From a virus, in IMG/VR virus record IMGVR_UViG_3300030329_004094, positions 1 through 26,602 of that record: a stretch of 26,602 nucleotides of DNA. The stretch is one strand, 5' to 3'. Every line of letters starts with the position of its first letter. The first letter of the stretch is position 1. The notes below the pieces were generated by a model. It was not told the DNA's origin, searched no databases, and saw nothing but the letters and a program-made list of their open reading frames with translations. A program made the position numbers and the translations under genes. This document shows positions 728-23,546 of the stretch, one piece after another.

Positions 728-748
728 GTTGTGACAAACGTTGTGACA
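728..748. repeat. tandem GTTGTGACA repeat, possible operator or activator site
   Basis: GTTGTGACA occurs at 728-736 and again at 740-748, a 12-base period or about one helical turn, so a protein could bind both copies on one DNA face. The second copy overlaps the candidate -35 box at 741-746. The core TGACA resembles the half-site of the palindrome at 677-693, which suggests one regulator could read the whole cluster. This is inference from spacing and similarity. Confidence 0.35.
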
Positions 749-769
749 TAAGATCCAATATGTTATGGA
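741..769 (+). promoter_or_regulatory. candidate sigma70-type promoter for the late operon
   Basis: TTGTGA (741-746) is a possible -35 box, followed by a 17-base spacer and an extended -10 (TG at 761-762, TATGGA at 764-769). The -10 match is weak. Support comes from its likeness to the better promoter at 26011-26039: both have TTGT, TCCA in the spacer and TGTTA at the same 20-base offset. It would give a leader of about 235 bases before the small terminase gene. Confidence 0.35.
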
Positions 770-826
770 ACAATAAAGGGGAGTGGGACTCCACCGAGGG
801 AAGTCGTGATTATCTTCACCTCAAAA

Positions 827-846
827 ACTGTGTACGACCACGCAGT
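827..846 (+). other. leader hairpin
   Basis: ACTGTGT (827-833) pairs with ACGCAGT (840-846): seven base pairs including one G-U, closing a 6-base loop. It lies nine bases before the larger folded element at 855-955 in the same non-coding leader. No T-run follows, so it is not a terminator. It may be part of one larger RNA structure. Confidence 0.4.
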
Positions 847-854
847 ATTTACCT

Positions 855-955
855 GACCTCCTGTGCGTTGCGGCCCTTCTAATTTCATGCGTAACGCGAA
901 AGCAGGCAACACCTCCTCCACTCTTAAATAGTCGGGGGTGAAAGGTCAGGAGGTC
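855..955 (+). other. possible three-way-junction RNA (or packaging-site DNA) upstream of terS
   Basis: GACCTCCTG (855-863) is the exact reverse complement of CAGGAGGTC (947-955), a 9-bp closing stem. Inside lie two more hairpins. GCGTTGCG (865-872) pairs with CGTAACGC (890-897), eight pairs with one G-U and a 17-base loop. CACCTCC (910-916) pairs with GGGGGTG (934-940), seven pairs with one G-U and again a 17-base loop. Together they make a three-way junction with no convincing ORF. The 3' strand of the outer stem contains AGGAGGT, a perfect ribosome-binding sequence, paired with its complement, though the terS start is about 56 bases further on. Candidate roles are a regulatory leader, a small RNA, or a terminase recognition (pac/cos) region. 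No known RNA family was recognised. Confidence 0.5.
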
Positions 956-1011
956 GATATTTTCTACCCGTTGATTTACAATGCCAGAAGCGTTCATTCC
1001 GAGAGGGCAAA

Positions 1012-1446: not shown

Positions 1447-2812
1447 TGCGGTAGAGCGACTCAAGGTCTGGCGTGAACACCCAGACATATTCGTACAAGA
1501 CCTATTCAAATGTCATATCGAGGAGTGGCAACGAGAAGCGCTGAAGAGCATAGCGACTCACGATAAGGTAAGTATCCGGTCTGGTCACGGAGTCGGCAAG
1601 AGCGCCCTGTTAAGCTGGGTAATATTATGGTTTATCTCTACCCGCTCGGATGCCAGAGTACCGTGTACTGCGCCATCCAGCCATCAGCTATCAGACGTGC
1701 TGTGGGCCGAGCTATTGAAATGGCTGAGAAAAGCGCCAGACTGGTATCAGTCACAGTTTGAAATGTCCGCAGACAGGGTGAGGATGGGTTCTAGCTATGC
1801 TGTGGCCCGTACAAGCAGGAAAGAACAGCCCGAAGCATTGCAGGGGTTCCACGCAGAAAACTTGCTGTACATCGTAGACGAAGCGAGCGGCATCCCAGAG
1901 AATGTGTACGAGACGGCAGAGGGAGCGCTGTCAGGGGAAGGGGCCAAGATTATGATGACGGCTAACCCGACAAGGGTGTCCGGTTACTTCTATGACTCGC
2001 ATCACAAGATGCGGAACAGATGGAAAACAATGGTAGTGCCGTGTACGGATAGCACTCAGGTATCGAAGACCTATATCGAGGATATGCTGGCGCGATGCGG
2101 CAACGACCCAGACTCAGACATTTACAGGGTACGTGTTCTGGGGGAGTTTCCTAAGAGCGAGTCCAACGGCGTTATTCCGCTCGACCTAGTGATAGCGGCG
2201 TATGATAGACCTGTTGAACAGATCAAAACAGTAATGCCCGTCTGGGGCTTGGACGTAGCCAGATTCGGCACTAACAAGACAGCCTTAGTGAAACGTCACG
2301 CAAATATCGTAAAGTCCGTAGAGACGATTACAAACAGGGATACGATGTATGTCGCAGGCTGGGTTATGCAACAGTATGAGGACGCGAACAGCGACGAGAG
2401 GCCAGCCGTGATTAACATTGATAGCATCGGCGTGGGGGCTGGGGTAGTAGACAGGATGAGAGAGCTAGATGTTCCTGTGCAGGGAATCAATGTAGGTGAA
2501 CAGCCGTCCGGCAAGGACCGCTATGCAAACCTGAGAGCAGAGCTATGGTGGAGAGCTAGGGAATGGCTAGAGCAACGGGACACACGGGTAGAGAGCGAGG
2601 ATCTAGGCGCTGAACTAACCGAGGTCCAGTTTAAAATTACCTCCACGGGGAAAATACAGATCGAATCAAAAGATGATATGCTAAAGCGCGGTGTGACATC
2701 ACCGGACATCGCAGACGCTTTTGTGCTGACATTTGCTGGCGCAGAGCGCAGACGGGGGCTAGGCAGGTACGCCGTTAAAGAACGCAAACAAAGAGCAGGA
2801 TGGGCGGCATGA
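1418..2812 (+). CDS. terL: terminase large subunit (packaging ATPase and nuclease)
   Basis: This 464-residue protein is the DNA-packaging motor and headful/cos nuclease, acting at the portal. The N-terminal ATPase shows Walker A GHGVGKS at residues 56-62, Walker B LLYIVDEA at 149-156 with the catalytic DE at 154-155, and the coupling motif TAN at 181-183. The C-terminal RNase H-like nuclease shows LDVARFG (Asp279), NIDSIG (Asp335) and a late acidic cluster SPDIADAF (Asp430, Asp433), the usual three metal-binding sites. The length is normal for the family. The start overlaps terS by 29 bases and is preceded by AGGAAGAAG. The end overlaps the following 1063-codon gene by 13 bases. Confidence 0.95.
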   Translation: MAKKQAINTDAVERLKVWREHPDIFVQDLFKCHIEEWQREALKSIATHDKVSIRSGHGVGKSALLSWVILWFISTRSDARVPCTAPSSHQLSDVLWAELLKWLRKAPDWYQSQFEMSADRVRMGSSYAVARTSRKEQPEALQGFHAENLLYIVDEASGIPENVYETAEGALSGEGAKIMMTANPTRVSGYFYDSHHKMRNRWKTMVVPCTDSTQVSKTYIEDMLARCGNDPDSDIYRVRVLGEFPKSESNGVIPLDLVIAAYDRPVEQIKTVMPVWGLDVARFGTNKTALVKRHANIVKSVETITNRDTMYVAGWVMQQYEDANSDERPAVINIDSIGVGAGVVDRMRELDVPVQGINVGEQPSGKDRYANLRAELWWRAREWLEQRDTRVESEDLGAELTEVQFKITSTGKIQIESKDDMLKRGVTSPDIADAFVLTFAGAERRRGLGRYAVKERKQRAGWAA

Positions 2813-5800
2813 GCGTATTAGACGTACTTGGAGGGCAAATAAGGGAAGGTGTGTTAGCGCCACCGCAGAGAATAGGGGAGCCGACTCCTACAAGGAATGT
2901 GTTAGGGATTAATCACCCGCTGGCGGAGTCACATCTGTTGCCGCGCTCGGTTGTAGCAATGACCCCATTTGGAGGCGCAACGTCCGGCTTCACGCAAGAA
3001 GCAATCGCAACATTAGGCCAACCAGAAGAAACGGTTTTTAGTATTCCGCCTTCCCGCTACGGCACACGCGATCCTCGCTATTTTCCATTGCCAGACGGCG
3101 CAGATATAACAAGCCATGACCTAGCACGATTCGAGTTAGGCTTAGATGCGCTAGATGCCGCGCCTTTTGTTGGCGCTTTAGGGGGTTTGGCTAGTGTGGC
3201 TATTCCATTCTTAGGTAGACAGCCGTTGCTGTCTGGGAGCAGCGGCGGGATTCCTTCGCCTAGCGCTCAAAGGGGAGCAATAGGATCAGACATAAACGCT
3301 AAAGCTAAAGAACAGCTCGCCAAATTAAAAGCGCAACAAAATGCCACGCAAGCCACGCCAGAAAAGCCATTAACAATAGAGAGCGAAAGAACATGGCAAA
3401 CTAGCGAATATCCAGAAGCCCGCGAAGCTCCAGAATGGGCGACATTACGTTCTTATGATGATGATATGCCGCCAGCGCCATATGAACTGACAGACTATGA
3501 AGAAATCGAATTGAGCGATGGAACAGTTATCAGATCAGAGTGGGGAAAATTGGATGAACGTCCCACCGTATGGATAGACGGAGTTGAACAAGACAAACGC
3601 TTTACCAGTGTTGGCGCAATACAAGAAGCGCAAATGCTAATAGATCGCAGAGCCAATGAATTTGCAAATAAATATCGGGGAGAGTTTGAACAAGGCATTC
3701 CAGAGGATATTGGCTTCTCAACGTCTGGTAGCAACCGAGAATACTATACGCTGGAAGACCCAGACACAGATCAGTTAGTTGAAGTGCGAGTTCTCAAAGA
3801 TCACCGACAGAAGCAAGGCGGCGGTTTTGATCAAGGGTCGGGTGAGCCGTATGGCGAATCGGATGTAGATATGTGGTTTGACAAAGATGGTGTGGTTCAT
3901 GTCGAAGGCTTGGAAGATATAGAGTCTGATCGCATCAAGAAGATGCTGCAAGGCTGGAAAGGCAAGCGACTTTGGCCTACGGCAAAGCCAGCACCAGCGG
4001 TTCAAGTATCGAGCGAGGCATTGCCATCTACAGGCTTGATAGAGGGCAGGATGATCAAGCGAATGCCGATTGACATACAGGACGAGTACGAGAGGCAGGT
4101 GCAGGAGATAATCGGCCCATCGCTATACGACAAGCTAGGGCTAACGGTTGTTGATGAGGCAATAGCGCCATCGAAGTACGACGGACATCAGGGAAGGTCA
4201 TTACAAACGATGTTAAGGCCAGAGACAGAGGTCAACAAAGCAGGAGACCTTGTTTTAACGCCAGATTATAAGAAAAAACTATTAGAACTAACGGCGGCGC
4301 GAGGGTTTTTACAAGACCAAGACGCTGTGACTATGAACTTTGCTGTTCCCTTGAAATCTTTCGAGAATATAGGTGTCGGCTATATAGATTATGACCGAGT
4401 CATCACAGACGATGAAATGCGCTTTTTCGACGAAATGTTAGATGAGTTAGGCGCAAAAGATGATACAATAGCGCGAGTCACTACACCGAAAGGCATTAAG
4501 TTTCTGAACCTTGGAATGGATGACGAAAAGTTTCAAGACTTGATGCAATCGGTGCATACAAAATCGGGACAAAAGATAGATTTATTCAAGAATGACTTAG
4601 GCGAGGAGATGGACTATGGCTATATCGGAGGATCGGACTGGCGCGGCGGGCAAGAAGCCTACCAAAAGATCGGGGCTGAGATTGGGGACGCAGGAGATGG
4701 CAAACAGAGCCAACCTTGGTGGAGTGCAGATGACGAGTTCATTTCGCTCAAGGAACGCATCCGCGAACACAGAAGGCAATTCATCAAGGACAACCCGCTC
4801 CCAGAAAAAACAATAAGGGAGATAGCGGACGAAAACGATGCCCGTTACCAAAGAGAAGGTCTAACTCTTCGGCTAAACGACCACTCCGACGAGGCTATGG
4901 ATGTCTTGGCAAGCCGTATGTTTGACGAGGCATTAGGCGTTCTTCGCGGCGGAGACAGGACAGGCAGAGGCTGGTATACGAGCAGGTATGACCAAGCATT
5001 AGGTGAGCTTGCCGTAAAAATACCGGAGCTAGACCTAGAGACCAAGACCCAGAAAGACCTGTACACTACGCTGACAGGGATATTTTCTGACGGCACGGCC
5101 ATCCAGCCCAACACAGAGCTTGCGGTTAATCAGTACAGGGATTTTCTACGCACAGGCAAAGTCAATGCGATGACTCCCACAGCGGGTCAGCGAAACAAAT
5201 CATTTCGCAATAACCTCGACAAGCTACAGGACTTAATAGACGACAAAGGCTTAGAAGGGGCTATGGAGTTTCTGGACGGGTTCAGCACAACCAGAGACCT
5301 ACAGAAACTAACGAATCGCAAGATCGGTTACTTGCAAGACCAGCGGTTGCCCAACTCCGTCATCTTTGGCGACAAAGTGGGCGTATTCATGGCTAACCTA
5401 AAAGGACACCCAGACTATCTGACAATGGATAGATGGTGGAATCGCACGGTGCATCGTTTGCGCGGGCATATGGGGGATGAGCCAAGTGAAAAAGGACTCA
5501 AACGGTTTAGGGAATTACTCGGCAGAGAAAAAGAACAGGAGTTAATGCGAAAGGCGGGGCATGGGCCGCAGTACGCCCCAGCGGCTCGAAGGAAGACATT
5601 GACCAAAGAAGCACGGCGGCTATCGAAGCAATACCAGAAAAAAGATTATAAAGACGGCACCCCTCTAGAAGTAGCGGCTAACACTATCTTTAAGGCCGAG
5701 ATGGGTTTACGAGATGTTGCGAAAAGCGGCGGAGAGAAGAAATTTCAATTAGACCTAGCGCGAAAAGTAGCAGAGCGTTTTAGACAAGACACAGAATATT

Positions 5801-5991
5801 CAGATATGACGGCGGCGGATTTACAGGCCATTATGTGGTTTGCAGAGAAGCGGCGCATGAAAGAGTTTGGAAGCAGGGATGTGAGAGGCTCAGAGGAGCT
5901 AGACTTTATGGATGCGGTGGAGAGATTGCCCCCAAACGTGCTAGACCCCTCTTTGAAAAATACCCCTGAACCAAGCCCATTAAGCCCATAA
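2800..5991 (+). CDS. large polyvalent-like phage protein, 1063 aa
   Basis: No enzyme motif was recognised, but the architecture resembles the large polyvalent proteins of phages and conjugative elements. Residues 1-150 are a low-complexity head with YGTRDPRYFPL at 87-97 and a hydrophobic glycine-rich stretch at 120-150. Residues 160-190 are Lys/Gln/Ala-rich. Residues 300-345 hold GSNREYYTLEDPDTDQ followed by a VRVLKDH turn, like accessory domains of such proteins. Residues 700-1020 (GWYTSRYDQAL, SDGTAIQPN, VIFGDKVGVFMANL, DRWWNRTVHRL, TPLEVAANTIFKAE, ADLQAIMWFAEKRR) match from memory a domain common at the end of these proteins (DUF7178-like). Such proteins are thought to be delivered with DNA or to counter defences; this is inference. 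The start overlaps terL by 13 bases; an ATG at 2809 is an alternative. Odd: it sits between terminase and portal, and its residue 87-97 peptide recurs in an internal virion protein. Confidence 0.75.
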   Translation: MGGMSVLDVLGGQIREGVLAPPQRIGEPTPTRNVLGINHPLAESHLLPRSVVAMTPFGGATSGFTQEAIATLGQPEETVFSIPPSRYGTRDPRYFPLPDGADITSHDLARFELGLDALDAAPFVGALGGLASVAIPFLGRQPLLSGSSGGIPSPSAQRGAIGSDINAKAKEQLAKLKAQQNATQATPEKPLTIESERTWQTSEYPEAREAPEWATLRSYDDDMPPAPYELTDYEEIELSDGTVIRSEWGKLDERPTVWIDGVEQDKRFTSVGAIQEAQMLIDRRANEFANKYRGEFEQGIPEDIGFSTSGSNREYYTLEDPDTDQLVEVRVLKDHRQKQGGGFDQGSGEPYGESDVDMWFDKDGVVHVEGLEDIESDRIKKMLQGWKGKRLWPTAKPAPAVQVSSEALPSTGLIEGRMIKRMPIDIQDEYERQVQEIIGPSLYDKLGLTVVDEAIAPSKYDGHQGRSLQTMLRPETEVNKAGDLVLTPDYKKKLLELTAARGFLQDQDAVTMNFAVPLKSFENIGVGYIDYDRVITDDEMRFFDEMLDELGAKDDTIARVTTPKGIKFLNLGMDDEKFQDLMQSVHTKSGQKIDLFKNDLGEEMDYGYIGGSDWRGGQEAYQKIGAEIGDAGDGKQSQPWWSADDEFISLKERIREHRRQFIKDNPLPEKTIREIADENDARYQREGLTLRLNDHSDEAMDVLASRMFDEALGVLRGGDRTGRGWYTSRYDQALGELAVKIPELDLETKTQKDLYTTLTGIFSDGTAIQPNTELAVNQYRDFLRTGKVNAMTPTAGQRNKSFRNNLDKLQDLIDDKGLEGAMEFLDGFSTTRDLQKLTNRKIGYLQDQRLPNSVIFGDKVGVFMANLKGHPDYLTMDRWWNRTVHRLRGHMGDEPSEKGLKRFRELLGREKEQELMRKAGHGPQYAPAARRKTLTKEARRLSKQYQKKDYKDGTPLEVAANTIFKAEMGLRDVAKSGGEKKFQLDLARKVAERFRQDTEYSDMTAADLQAIMWFAEKRRMKEFGSRDVRGSEELDFMDAVERLPPNVLDPSLKNTPEPSPLSP
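3057..3089 (+). repeat. 33-nt exact direct repeat, copy 1 (inside the 1063-aa gene)
   Basis: The 33 bases beginning CTACGGCACACGCGATC are identical to those at 23510-23542, about 20.5 kb downstream. Here they encode YGTRDPRYFPL at residues 87-97. Identity covers silent positions too, and the flanking bases differ. Confidence 0.95.
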
Positions 5992-10749: not shown

Positions 10750-10756
10750 GGCGTAG

Positions 10757-10787
10757 CTGGCGGTGGGTTAATCCACCTGTCAGTTTT
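10757..10787 (+). terminator. possible rho-independent terminator after the capsid genes
   Basis: CTG (10757-10759) and GGTGG (10762-10766) pair with CCACC (10773-10777) and CAG (10781-10783) across a small internal loop, with a 6-base apical loop, followed by TTTT at 10784-10787. The T-run is short, so it is probably partial, letting some transcription through to the sugar cassette. It lies eight bases after the decoration gene. Confidence 0.4.
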
Positions 10788-10809
10788 AGCCAAACCGTCG
10801 GTTATGTCA

Positions 10810-10833
10810 GGGGGGTGGCGAAAGTCACTCCCC
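10810..10833 (+). promoter_or_regulatory. stable hairpin with GAAA tetraloop at the start of the sugar cassette
   Basis: GGGGGGTGGC (10810-10819) pairs with GTCACTCCCC (10824-10833) over ten positions (eight Watson-Crick, two G-U), capped by GAAA (10820-10823), a very stable GNRA loop. No T-run follows. The hairpin covers the only upstream start alternative for the next gene (GTG at 10815) and lies nine bases before its likely Shine-Dalgarno. It may block the early start, protect the mRNA end, or tune translation. Confidence 0.5.
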
Positions 10834-10856
10834 ACCTTTATAGAGGACAGGACTAT

Positions 10857-12323
10857 ATGGGTAAACTGATTGGCGAAGTTATGGACGATCTGCAAGCGGC
10901 GCAAGTCGAGTGCAGTGAGAACAATGACTTTGAGAAACTACAGACCGTTATGGATGGCTACCAGCAATTACTGCTGGAAGCGCCACACGACCCCTACATC
11001 ATATTTCAACTCGGCACAGCACACCTACAGAAGCAAGAGTACGGCGTAGCGCTGGTCATCCTGCAACGGGTTCTTGACTACCTGCCGGATAACTCCCATG
11101 TGTGGAGTAACATCGGTTGCTGTTATCGCGCCATGCATATGCTTCCACAAGCAAGAGACTGTTTTATGAAGTCTCTGATGCTGGAGGAGAAGGCAGAAAC
11201 CTACTCGAATCTTGCATCATCTTATGTCAACGAGGATGCGCCGGAGGAGGGATGGCCGTATGCCATTAAAGCGATGGAGCTAGAGCCTGACACAGCGAAG
11301 GCAAGATGGAACGCGAGCCTGCTACAGCTAGAGATGCGGAACTGGAAGGAAGGCTTTGCGCTGTACGATGCAGGGTTTTTCTGTGGTGAGCGCGGACTGA
11401 GAAGCTATAGCAATGATACGCCGGACAGCACGGACTGGTTTGACGGCAATCTGCAATCAGGCAAAACGCTGGCGCTCTGGGACGAGCAAGGGCTAGGGGA
11501 TAGGCTATTAGCGGCAGGGTTGCTCCCAAAGCTCGAAAAAGCGAATCTCGAAATCATCTTAGAATGTCATCCGAGGCTAGAGGCTATCTACAAGCGTTCT
11601 TTCCCGTGGATCAACAAGATATATCCGACAGCCAAGAAATCGTTTATCGAGTGGCCGAATGACCATCCGGTAGATCAGAAATCTGCGGTATTTAGCCTTG
11701 CTAAGCACTTCTGGAAAACAGAAGCGGATATGAGTACACGGTCTTATCTAAAGCCCAACCCAGAGCTACTGGAAATGTATCGCAAGCAGTTCGAGGCGCT
11801 TGGTCCGCCGCCCTACTACGGGTTGAGTTGGAAAGGTGGCGCACTGAAAACCAACACGCAATATCGGTCAATGAAGCTGGGCTGGTTCGAGAACGTGATA
11901 AAACGAGCGGGCGGAACGTGGATCTCTATGCAGTACCACGAGGATGCTAAAGAGAAAGTGGAACGGATGAGGGAGCAGACAGGGCTTCCGATATTCCATT
12001 GCGATGCGGCGCAGGAAATGGATTACGACCATACGCTGTCCGCTCTGGCGGCACTAGATCACACAATTACTTGCTGTAACACGGTAGTTCATACCTGTGG
12101 TGCGGCGGGTTTGAAATGCACGGCGCTTGTGCCAAAGAAACGGGCTTGGCGCTATCCGGCTGGCCCGTACTTTCCTTGGTATTCCGACGATATTGTTATG
12201 TTCCACCAGACCACAGATCAAGAGTGGAAAGAGGTTTTAGAGGTTTTAGGAGGGTCGCTCGAAAATGCGTACAATCATAATAGGTCACGGTCCGTCGATT
12301 CTAAGACAGAAACTCGGCAGTGA
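10857..12323 (+). CDS. TPR-repeat glycosyltransferase (GT-B fold, GT41/GT9-like)
   Basis: With the ATG at 10857 the protein has 488 residues; AGAGGA lies at 10842-10847, nine bases upstream. A GTG at 10815 would add 14 residues but lies inside a strong hairpin and lacks a well-spaced site. Residues from about 30 to 150 are tetratricopeptide repeats (DPYIIFQLGTAHLQKQEYG, HVWSNIGCCYRAMHMLPQA, AETYSNLASSY). The rest looks like a GT-B transferase related to heptosyltransferases: WDEQGLGDRLLAAGLLPKL near 208-226, YGLSWKGG near 321-328, and DHTITCCNTVVHTCGAAGL near 401-419, the usual nucleotide-sugar loop. TPR plus such a domain recalls O-GlcNAc-transferase-like enzymes that modify proteins. Substrate is unknown. 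The 3' end overlaps the next gene by 59 bases. Confidence 0.75.
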   Translation: MGKLIGEVMDDLQAAQVECSENNDFEKLQTVMDGYQQLLLEAPHDPYIIFQLGTAHLQKQEYGVALVILQRVLDYLPDNSHVWSNIGCCYRAMHMLPQARDCFMKSLMLEEKAETYSNLASSYVNEDAPEEGWPYAIKAMELEPDTAKARWNASLLQLEMRNWKEGFALYDAGFFCGERGLRSYSNDTPDSTDWFDGNLQSGKTLALWDEQGLGDRLLAAGLLPKLEKANLEIILECHPRLEAIYKRSFPWINKIYPTAKKSFIEWPNDHPVDQKSAVFSLAKHFWKTEADMSTRSYLKPNPELLEMYRKQFEALGPPPYYGLSWKGGALKTNTQYRSMKLGWFENVIKRAGGTWISMQYHEDAKEKVERMREQTGLPIFHCDAAQEMDYDHTLSALAALDHTITCCNTVVHTCGAAGLKCTALVPKKRAWRYPAGPYFPWYSDDIVMFHQTTDQEWKEVLEVLGGSLENAYNHNRSRSVDSKTETRQ

Positions 12324-21353: not shown

Positions 21354-23546
21354 ATGTCATTTATCAAACACACAAAAGATGGCGCTTATATAAAATTTAC
21401 GCATGGCCCTGAAAGGGGGAATTTATATGAGTACAGCCTTGATGATGTCAAACAGGGAACAGTGCAAAGCGAGTTTGACAACTACAATGCCAAGTACGAG
21501 TTTCAGCCGACAGGCAGGCAAGAACTAGCGGCAGTGGCTCAAGGAGCGACGTTTGGATGGGGTGATGAATTGCAAGCATTTTACGGTGCGGCATTAGACA
21601 AGGTGTTTGCAGGAGAGGACTTTTCCGATAGCTATGTGGCGTTACGAGACGCTTATCGTGATGAAGTAGAATCTTACAAGCAAAGCGACCCTCTTGGATA
21701 TACCGTGAGAGAGGTGGGAGGGTCGTTGCCGACAGGCTTTGGGATCGCTGGGCAAATGGCAAAAATACCGAAAATAGCGACGGCGTTACAGGGCGGCTGG
21801 AAAAGCAAACAAGCGTTAAAAGCGTCTGCGGTAATTGGCGCGACTGAAGGAACAATATACGGCGCTGGGGTTGCTGGAGGAGGCTCCCCAGTGATACAGA
21901 AAGACCCAATGACGGGAGAGATAACACAAACGGAAGATGTGCTTTCGTCGCCATTGTCGCAGGGCTTGACTACTGCCGGATCTGGCTTGGGGGGAGCCGT
22001 TGGAGGGCCGCTAGGACAAACTGTGGTTGGCGCAACTGGAGCGGCGGCTGGATATACCGGAAGAAAGCTGGGAGATGCGGTATTAGCCTTAAGCAATATG
22101 CTAAAAGAACGCAGTCAGCGCGTAGATATATCAATTCCAACAGCGGACACGATCTTAAAAGATGTTTTGTTAGGTACGGACGCAACAGAGGACGAAGCTT
22201 TTGCATGGTTGCGAAATAACCCAAAGTCTACTCTTGCGGACTTTAATGACTCCATGCAGAAAATAGGGGAAATGGTAGCGGCGAAATTGCATATGCCAGA
22301 CAATTATCTGGAGTTTTTTGCGGGGCGAGATACTACTGCAATCGACAGGATCATGCTTCCCGTGAGAAAGCACTTTGGAGGTGTCGTAGAATCCGGCAGA
22401 ACACTGTCGCAAATAGCAGAGGGCAGAGAGGCGTTAGCGAAACCGCTATATGCTCAGGCAATGGAAGAGGGTGTAGAAAATACGCCTGTGTTAAGACAAA
22501 TATTCGAGCATATGAAAAAACATACGCCAGAGAGACTAAACAAATCAAGAAAGCTAGGGCTGGAACACGCTTTAGCAAATAGTCTTCCCATCGACGAGGA
22601 GGCGCTAGGAACCGCATTGCCGACGTTACGGTGGTGGCAAGCTATTTCCCAGCAGTTAGATGACGACATCGGAAAGGCTATACGCGAAGGAGCAGGTTTC
22701 GAGGTGGCGAATTTAGTGGGGATAAAAAAACGAATAACGAATGAGTTATACGCCCAGAACGATGCGTATAGGCAGGCTAACGCGATATGGCAGAACAGCA
22801 AGCATATGGAAAACATGGTAGATGCGGGGAGGGATCTGTATAAAAACAAAAAGTTAAGCGAAATTTTCGCAGATTCAGAAGATATAAAAAATCTAAGCCC
22901 ACGAGACAAACAGCTATTCATGTTGGGTTTCGGTGAGGCTATACAAGACAACTTAAGCTCGATAATTGGCACGGGAGATTTCGGTGTTATGGCCGGATCT
23001 ATGAAAACCAGATCGTTTTTAACAAAAGCAATGGAAGAAAAATTAAGATTGCTCTTGCCGGATGAAGCGTTTGAAGAGTTTGCAGAAATGATAAAAATGG
23101 AGGCGCGATTCAAAGGCACGGCAAACAGAATAAACAAAGGATCGCAGACTTATGCACATAATGTTGTAGAAGCGGCGTTGCGTAGTAAAGAGGCTGAGAT
23201 CGACAAGTCAACAAGAAGCGCTGTCGTAGACAAGCTGATGGAACAATACAGACTAAGCGACCCTACTGTAAAGGACTTGCAGAACAGGTTGTTTACACCC
23301 TACAGCGGACACCGTTACGGGCAACCGTATTTTCCGCCAGAAGGACAGCCATTTAATCCGACGGGGATCGCAAGCCAAGCGCCAGTGTCGCCAGTGTCGA
23401 ATTTGCAATTATTAGGCGGCTCTATCGGAGCAGCAGAGGGCGGCAGGCAAGGTTCGGCGTTTGTTAACCCGATGTTTCAAAGCGGCAACCCGTTACAAAT
23501 AAGCACGCCCTACGGCACACGCGATCCTCGCTATTTTCCATTATAA
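21354..23546 (+). CDS. large internal virion / ejection protein, 730 aa
   Basis: AAGGAAAGG precedes the ATG. The N-terminal phrase ELAAVAQGATFGWGDELQAF (57-76) recurs, from memory, in large phage internal proteins. It is followed by a long glycine/alanine-rich hydrophobic zone at about 125-240 (GGAVGGPLGQTVVGATGAAA), suggestive of membrane insertion, then a long helical region to about 640. No lysozyme-type active site was identified. The last residues are YGTRDPRYFPL, identical to residues 87-97 of the 1063-residue protein encoded after the large terminase and encoded there by the same 33 bases. The probable role is to form part of the ejection channel. The shared tail peptide could be a packaging or processing tag, which is inference. 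Confidence 0.65.
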   Translation: MSFIKHTKDGAYIKFTHGPERGNLYEYSLDDVKQGTVQSEFDNYNAKYEFQPTGRQELAAVAQGATFGWGDELQAFYGAALDKVFAGEDFSDSYVALRDAYRDEVESYKQSDPLGYTVREVGGSLPTGFGIAGQMAKIPKIATALQGGWKSKQALKASAVIGATEGTIYGAGVAGGGSPVIQKDPMTGEITQTEDVLSSPLSQGLTTAGSGLGGAVGGPLGQTVVGATGAAAGYTGRKLGDAVLALSNMLKERSQRVDISIPTADTILKDVLLGTDATEDEAFAWLRNNPKSTLADFNDSMQKIGEMVAAKLHMPDNYLEFFAGRDTTAIDRIMLPVRKHFGGVVESGRTLSQIAEGREALAKPLYAQAMEEGVENTPVLRQIFEHMKKHTPERLNKSRKLGLEHALANSLPIDEEALGTALPTLRWWQAISQQLDDDIGKAIREGAGFEVANLVGIKKRITNELYAQNDAYRQANAIWQNSKHMENMVDAGRDLYKNKKLSEIFADSEDIKNLSPRDKQLFMLGFGEAIQDNLSSIIGTGDFGVMAGSMKTRSFLTKAMEEKLRLLLPDEAFEEFAEMIKMEARFKGTANRINKGSQTYAHNVVEAALRSKEAEIDKSTRSAVVDKLMEQYRLSDPTVKDLQNRLFTPYSGHRYGQPYFPPEGQPFNPTGIASQAPVSPVSNLQLLGGSIGAAEGGRQGSAFVNPMFQSGNPLQISTPYGTRDPRYFPL
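23510..23542 (+). repeat. 33-nt exact direct repeat, copy 2 (3' end of the 730-aa gene)
   Basis: Identical over 33 bases to 3057-3089. Here it encodes the last eleven residues of the internal virion protein and ends within its final Leu codon, just before the TAA stop. Both copies are in the same orientation. Confidence 0.95.

Follow-up and report, generated by a model that had tools for sequence, protein, structure and literature searches.

A candidate structured leader RNA ahead of the terminase genes in a small lineage of uncultured phages

The pRNA of Phi29 is a trans-acting part of the motor in phages with a terminal protein. The late leader of phage lambda, the 6S RNA transcribed from pR', ends at a Q-controlled terminator and precedes the lysis genes. 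The put RNAs of HK022 (putL and putR) are ~70 nt long, form two stem-loops and follow the early promoters (PMC9378689). Here we analyse a folded, non-coding element upstream of the small terminase gene (terS) of an uncultured phage. Our leading interpretation, to which we assign a probability of about 0.45, is that it forms a structured 5' leader on the late mRNA, which carries the packaging and structural genes, and that this leader acts in cis on the transcript and not by hiding the terS start.

The window, by which we mean the whole stretch of DNA that was analysed, comprises positions 1–26,602 of the IMG/VR virus record IMGVR_UViG_3300030329_004094. It begins within an ArdC-type antirestriction gene, which is followed by a 114-aa ORF ending at 662 and then by a non-coding gap (663–1011) that separates this ORF from terS and contains the folded element (Table 1). 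Portal, major head and virion genes are found downstream of terL. Scans of viral contigs with TerS and TerL, together with DNA-pattern scans, recovered the element in only two further contigs, IMGVR_UViG_3300030419_001668 (G002) and IMGVR_UViG_3300025128_000372 (G001). The first of these is a complete genome of 37 kb, self-closing through a 98-bp overlap located elsewhere than the leader. Two extra matches to the DNA pattern fall within tape-measure-like coding sequence and were set aside as chance. The element was not found in the next relative by TerL (74% identity) and is not, therefore, required for this gene order; in more distant relatives, the gaps preceding terS do not as a rule fold strongly. 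Among the sequences compared, it occurs in a single small lineage.

Table 1. Positions of genes, candidate signals and predicted RNA structures around the element (window coordinates).
Feature	Position	Strand	Basis or remark
Hairpin, ~14-pair stem (GCGT-TGTCATGTTT...GAGTATGACA-ACGC), no T run, directly 3' of 114-aa ORF stop codon	663–698	+	fold of 663–1011
Direct repeat GTTGTGACA	728–736, 740–748	+	sequence; same in both relatives
Candidate late promoter: TTGTGA (741–746), 17 nt, extended -10 TGT-TATGGA (761–769)	741–769	+	by eye
Leader hairpin 1, GGGGAGT/ACTCC.CC	778–795	+	invariant in three copies
Leader hairpin 2, GAGGGAAG/CTTC.CCTC	796–822	+	arm 26–27 nt longer in two relatives
Leader hairpin 3, 7 pairs, 6-nt loop	827–846	+	predicted fold
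Three-way junction, register A (preferred), closing stem 852–859/943–950	852–950	+	MFE structure, probability 0.56–0.63
Register A, arm 1	860–864/902–906 and 865–872/890–897	+	MFE structure
Register A, arm 2	910–916/934–940 and 920–922/930–932	+	MFE structure
Three-way junction, register B (earlier description), stem 855–863/947–955	855–955	+	constrained fold, probability 0.31–0.37
Likely terS ribosome-binding site, GAGAGG	1001–1006	+	sequence, 5 nt before ATG 1012
terS, small terminase subunit, 144 aa	1012–1446	+	PHROG 309, E 9e-22
terL, large terminase subunit, 464 aa	1418–2812	+	PHROG 2, E 1e-50

A sequence-only reading of this DNA had described, within 827–955, a perfect 9-bp stem enclosing two hairpins, with a third hairpin just upstream, and all of these pairings are present. 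The upstream hairpin has 7 pairs (827–833/840–846), the closing stem is perfect over 9 bp (855–863/947–955), the first inner hairpin has 8 pairs (865–872/890–897, one G–U) and a 17-nt loop, and the second has 7 pairs (910–916/934–940, one G–U) and a 17-nt loop that holds 3 further pairs. The closing stem can be drawn in two mutually exclusive registers which share the inner hairpins. The 8-bp register A is predicted to be slightly more stable than the 9-bp register B of the earlier description (63% versus 37%; −47.0 kcal/mol for the MFE fold versus −46.0 kcal/mol for the fold constrained to register B). In register A, residues 852–872 form a single continuous paired strand leading into arm 1, which is lengthened by the 860–864/902–906 helix. 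Pairing between the two 17-nt loops (ATTT/AAAT) was considered and dropped, as one relative has AAAC. The fold is also larger than first noted, with two more hairpins (778–795 and 796–822) preceding position 827. From ~778 onwards, about 180 nt of leader are paired nearly continuously in four helical domains, the last of which is the three-way junction.

Folding of 827–955 is better than that of shuffled sequence at z of about −3.3 to −3.6 (MFE −47.0 kcal/mol; z = −3.55, none of 200 shuffles being as good, and z = −3.26 with 2/1000 in a second run). The composite motif, defined as a perfect stem of at least 9 pairs enclosing two hairpins of at least 7 pairs, occurs once on the two strands of the window, on the plus strand at this site, and in none of 3000 dinucleotide shuffles, which agrees with the earlier judgement that such nesting is unlikely to arise by chance. 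The plus strand folds better than the minus strand over the same interval (z = −3.3 versus −1.5), as would suit an RNA read on the plus strand. Ranked by z among 816 folding windows from both strands, 846–974 comes fourth, and several others in the contig reach z values similar to that of 827–955, so that energy alone would not convince. The earlier description of the region as lacking an ORF needs qualifying, since small frames do exist (minus strand 821–997 and plus strand 938–1063); they nevertheless look non-coding, and a protein product of either was rejected because most of the differences between the copies alter amino acids.

The window holds a stronger fold than 827–955, namely 10750–10858, which at z = −5.7 is the strongest one examined. 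This intergenic stretch, 3' of the head genes, combines a 15-bp helix with a 10-bp GAAA-tetraloop hairpin and sits just before the ribosome-binding site of a 502-aa ORF. It is present at ~98% in both relatives, although one of its pairs seems to be broken in G001, and may act below the capsid gene as a partial terminator or a processing site.

Both relatives give the same fold of the element (z = −3.4 and −2.5). Within 827–955 the copies differ at 857 (C to T), at 879 (loop, two variants) and at 929 (loop). The first of these changes lies in the closing stem, where it produces a G–U pair compatible with both registers. Hairpin 2 carries one C to T change that converts G–C to G–U and retains its outer stem despite the change in length of 26–27 nt in both relatives, while its longer arm shows one A–U/U–G double change between the two. 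None of 63 pairs is broken over the three near-identical copies, and the one both-sides change is in that outer arm; the three-way junction has no compensatory changes among these copies. Covariation, which the sequence-only reading had looked to as a test of the stems, is thus nearly silent. The chance that five changes would break no pair is 0.05–0.14, so that the support is weak, and the structure was derived from the very sequences in which the pairs were counted, a bias in its favour. The promoter region and 827–955 together differ at 6 of 488 sites, compared with 90 of 2628 in a coding set consisting of ArdC and the 3' part of terL (Fisher p = 0.007). The lower divergence is not significant for 827–955 alone (p = 0.14) and, because terS is equally little changed (0.7–1.4%), it may reflect local history and not constraint.

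These comparisons bear on whether the element has any function at all, the alternative being that the fold arose by chance, or is a relic, between the genes of phages that diverged recently. Its limitation to three closely related contigs, the scarcity of covariation and the similar z values found elsewhere in the contig are all consistent with this alternative, whereas the uniqueness of the composite motif in the window and its absence from the shuffles, the lack of any pair-breaking change and the low divergence shared with the promoter region speak against it. On balance, we regard a functionless fold as distinctly unlikely.

Several differences between the contigs concern the genes around terL. 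A 1063-aa ORF (2800–5991) lies between terL and the portal gene and is without a Pfam or PHROG match. Its residues ~190–395 are absent or replaced in the 837-aa version of a relative, which suggests that an internal segment has been exchanged. G002 carries an extra 758-aa ORF (L115:9-2285) between its homologue of the 1063-aa ORF and the portal gene, with ~37 residues common to both. Furthermore, the 3' end of a 730-aa ORF contains 33 nt (23510–23542) identical to G002 34435–34467, inside the homologue of the 1063-aa ORF; they are a possible recombination footprint. The 5' part of terL (1447–2000) differs by 11.7% from G002 and by 2.7% from G001, whereas terS differs by 0.7% from G002; this unequal divergence would place a mosaic boundary within the terminase genes.

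The AGGAGGT motif is indeed paired in the closing stem, as had been pointed out, but the suggestion that a ribosome-binding sequence is thereby hidden finds no support as a means of controlling terS. The motif ends at 954, 57 nt before the terS ATG, and no ATG, GTG or TTG stands at normal spacing from it, the nearest alternative starts being TTG 971 (16 nt away) and the non-standard ATT 959. With this distance and no start in reach, AGGAGGT is excluded as the terS ribosome-binding site; terS has its own GAGAGG, and both this site and the start codon are outside the three-way junction. A sequestering riboregulator of terS, with a hidden Shine–Dalgarno sequence at normal start-codon distance, was not found. 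The two registers do raise the idea of a translational or conformational switch, in which the closing stem slides between near-isoenergetic states and so exposes or hides AGGAGGUC. The registers are mutually exclusive and 1 kcal/mol apart, AGGAGGUC (948–955) is fully paired in register B only, and the sole change in the closing stem (857 C to T) permits both. Such a switch nevertheless seems improbable to us: it has no start codon on which to act at normal spacing from AGGAGGT, nothing in the overlapping frame 938–1063 points to coding constraint, it has no known ligand or protein partner, and the repetitive CCTGACCTCCTG sequence may by itself account for the two registers.

The DNA between the 114-aa ORF and the leader contains candidate signals for the start of a transcript. 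The hairpin at the beginning of the gap is a possible end-of-operon or operator element, and the folding window starting at 651 has z = −3.2. The GTTGTGACA repeat is a possible activator or repressor site. The candidate late promoter was not called by a consensus promoter scan; with its repeats, it is unchanged in the relatives. A start would be expected near 775, and the promoter would lie after the ArdC gene cluster and ahead of terS. The first 180 nt of the transcript would then form the three hairpins and the three-way junction, ending ~50 nt before the terS ribosome-binding site. Either the message would begin with base-paired structure, or read-through RNA coming from the upstream genes would carry it at its cut end, and the leader would thereby protect and insulate the packaging and structural genes, in cis, on the long late transcript. 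We infer the promoter, the start site and the target, which we take to be RNA stability or processing and not RNA polymerase or ribosomes.

A late-mRNA leader is drawn from several lines of evidence: the fold beyond shuffles, the strand bias, the near-gapless run of hairpins and the same fold in both relatives; the position between ArdC/114-aa ORF and terS, with changes that fall only in loops or give G–U pairs; and the kept stem of hairpin 2, the low divergence and a terS start outside the junction. It is also the simplest account, because AGGAGGT is too far from terS, the leader has no terminator and the by-eye promoter has GTTGTGACA repeats upstream. Among the three options offered by the sequence-only reading (a leader of the late mRNA, a small RNA and a terminase-binding site), the first is best favoured by position, plus-strand bias and low divergence.

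No plus-strand terminator-like site was found in the leader of the window, which counts against both attenuation and a free small RNA; G002 has one weak site. That the element is a stand-alone, trans-acting phage small RNA is highly improbable. It is compact, strongly folded and non-coding, as such an RNA would be, but it has no terminator after 955, no good promoter of its own called by the scan and no Rfam match.

Packaging offers another explanation, in which the region is a DNA element, cos or pac, bound or cut by terminase, with the repeats and inverted repeats that many phages have upstream of terS. The location directly upstream of terS, the GTTGTGACA repeats and several TGTCA motifs would fit. 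We consider this quite unlikely, since the preference for folding on one strand is needless for a DNA site and no direct repeat was found within 827–955. The region is moreover unbroken in all three contigs and G002 closes elsewhere, which is still compatible with cos.

Searches for other members of the family returned no further copies. Against Rfam (4227 families) there was no match at gathering scores, and none up to E 10 for 640–1030. Model R1 found no match in the remaining TerL loci, in 13 additional virus records or among 385 genomes from a single class, which may not be the class of the host. A blastn comparison of the leader with phages and plasmids gave nothing of note, and no RNA described at this position was found in the literature. 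A 17-base pattern had 22 matches in genome contigs, about the chance expectation; the best of them (E 0.0025) was rejected as it lies inside a coding gene, which we take from its sequence to be hypE-like. The lack of an Rfam match, the size and architecture unlike those of put and a likeness to the lambda late leader in position only indicate that the element is probably a previously undescribed structured phage leader RNA. If it does work as a leader, the early/late switch of environmental phages gains a lineage-specific RNA element not described before; for now, what the three uncultured phage contigs offer is a plausible RNA element.

A role in transcription itself is the remaining alternative. 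HK022 put suppresses terminators by way of the zinc-binding domain of RNA polymerase. As an RNA-only processive antiterminator of this kind, the nascent leader would fold, stay on RNA polymerase and allow it to read through the terminators of the 25-kb late operon. A structured RNA close to where a long operon is inferred to begin would be well placed for this, and strong hairpins such as 10750–10858 occur within the operon. G002 has lambdoid-type Erf, YqaJ exonuclease, O-like, NinB and NinG proteins, and its endolysin follows directly after NinG, in the Q position of lambda-type phages. None of the 20 G002 proteins scanned matches an antiterminator, although a missing Q is negative evidence, the families being diverse, and the scan covered those 20 proteins. 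Also against this idea, put is ~70 nt with two stem-loops (PMC9378689), compared with ~180 nt and a three-way junction here, and a search of the right part of HK022 with model R1 gave no match (25000–40751, in a record in which put is not annotated). We therefore judge put-like antitermination unlikely. The bolder version, a new RNA-only antiterminator of late transcription with a fold unrelated to put, heading the structural operon of a phage that has lambdoid early genes and no recognisable Q, we hold to be a long shot; were it true, phages could substitute an RNA for the Q protein.

The late-mRNA leader that we favour thus resembles each of the described systems in part. Like the Phi29 pRNA, it would be a phage RNA with a three-way junction and a link to packaging, but this phage has a TerS/TerL pair and the element matches no Rfam family. 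Compared with the lambda 6S leader, no terminator was found here and the lysis genes are upstream, whereas both would be leader RNAs at the start of late transcription in phages with lambdoid early genes. It differs from put in its length, in its three-way junction and in standing before the late genes and, like put, it would fold as nascent RNA close to where a phage operon starts, acting in cis if the antiterminator explanation is right.
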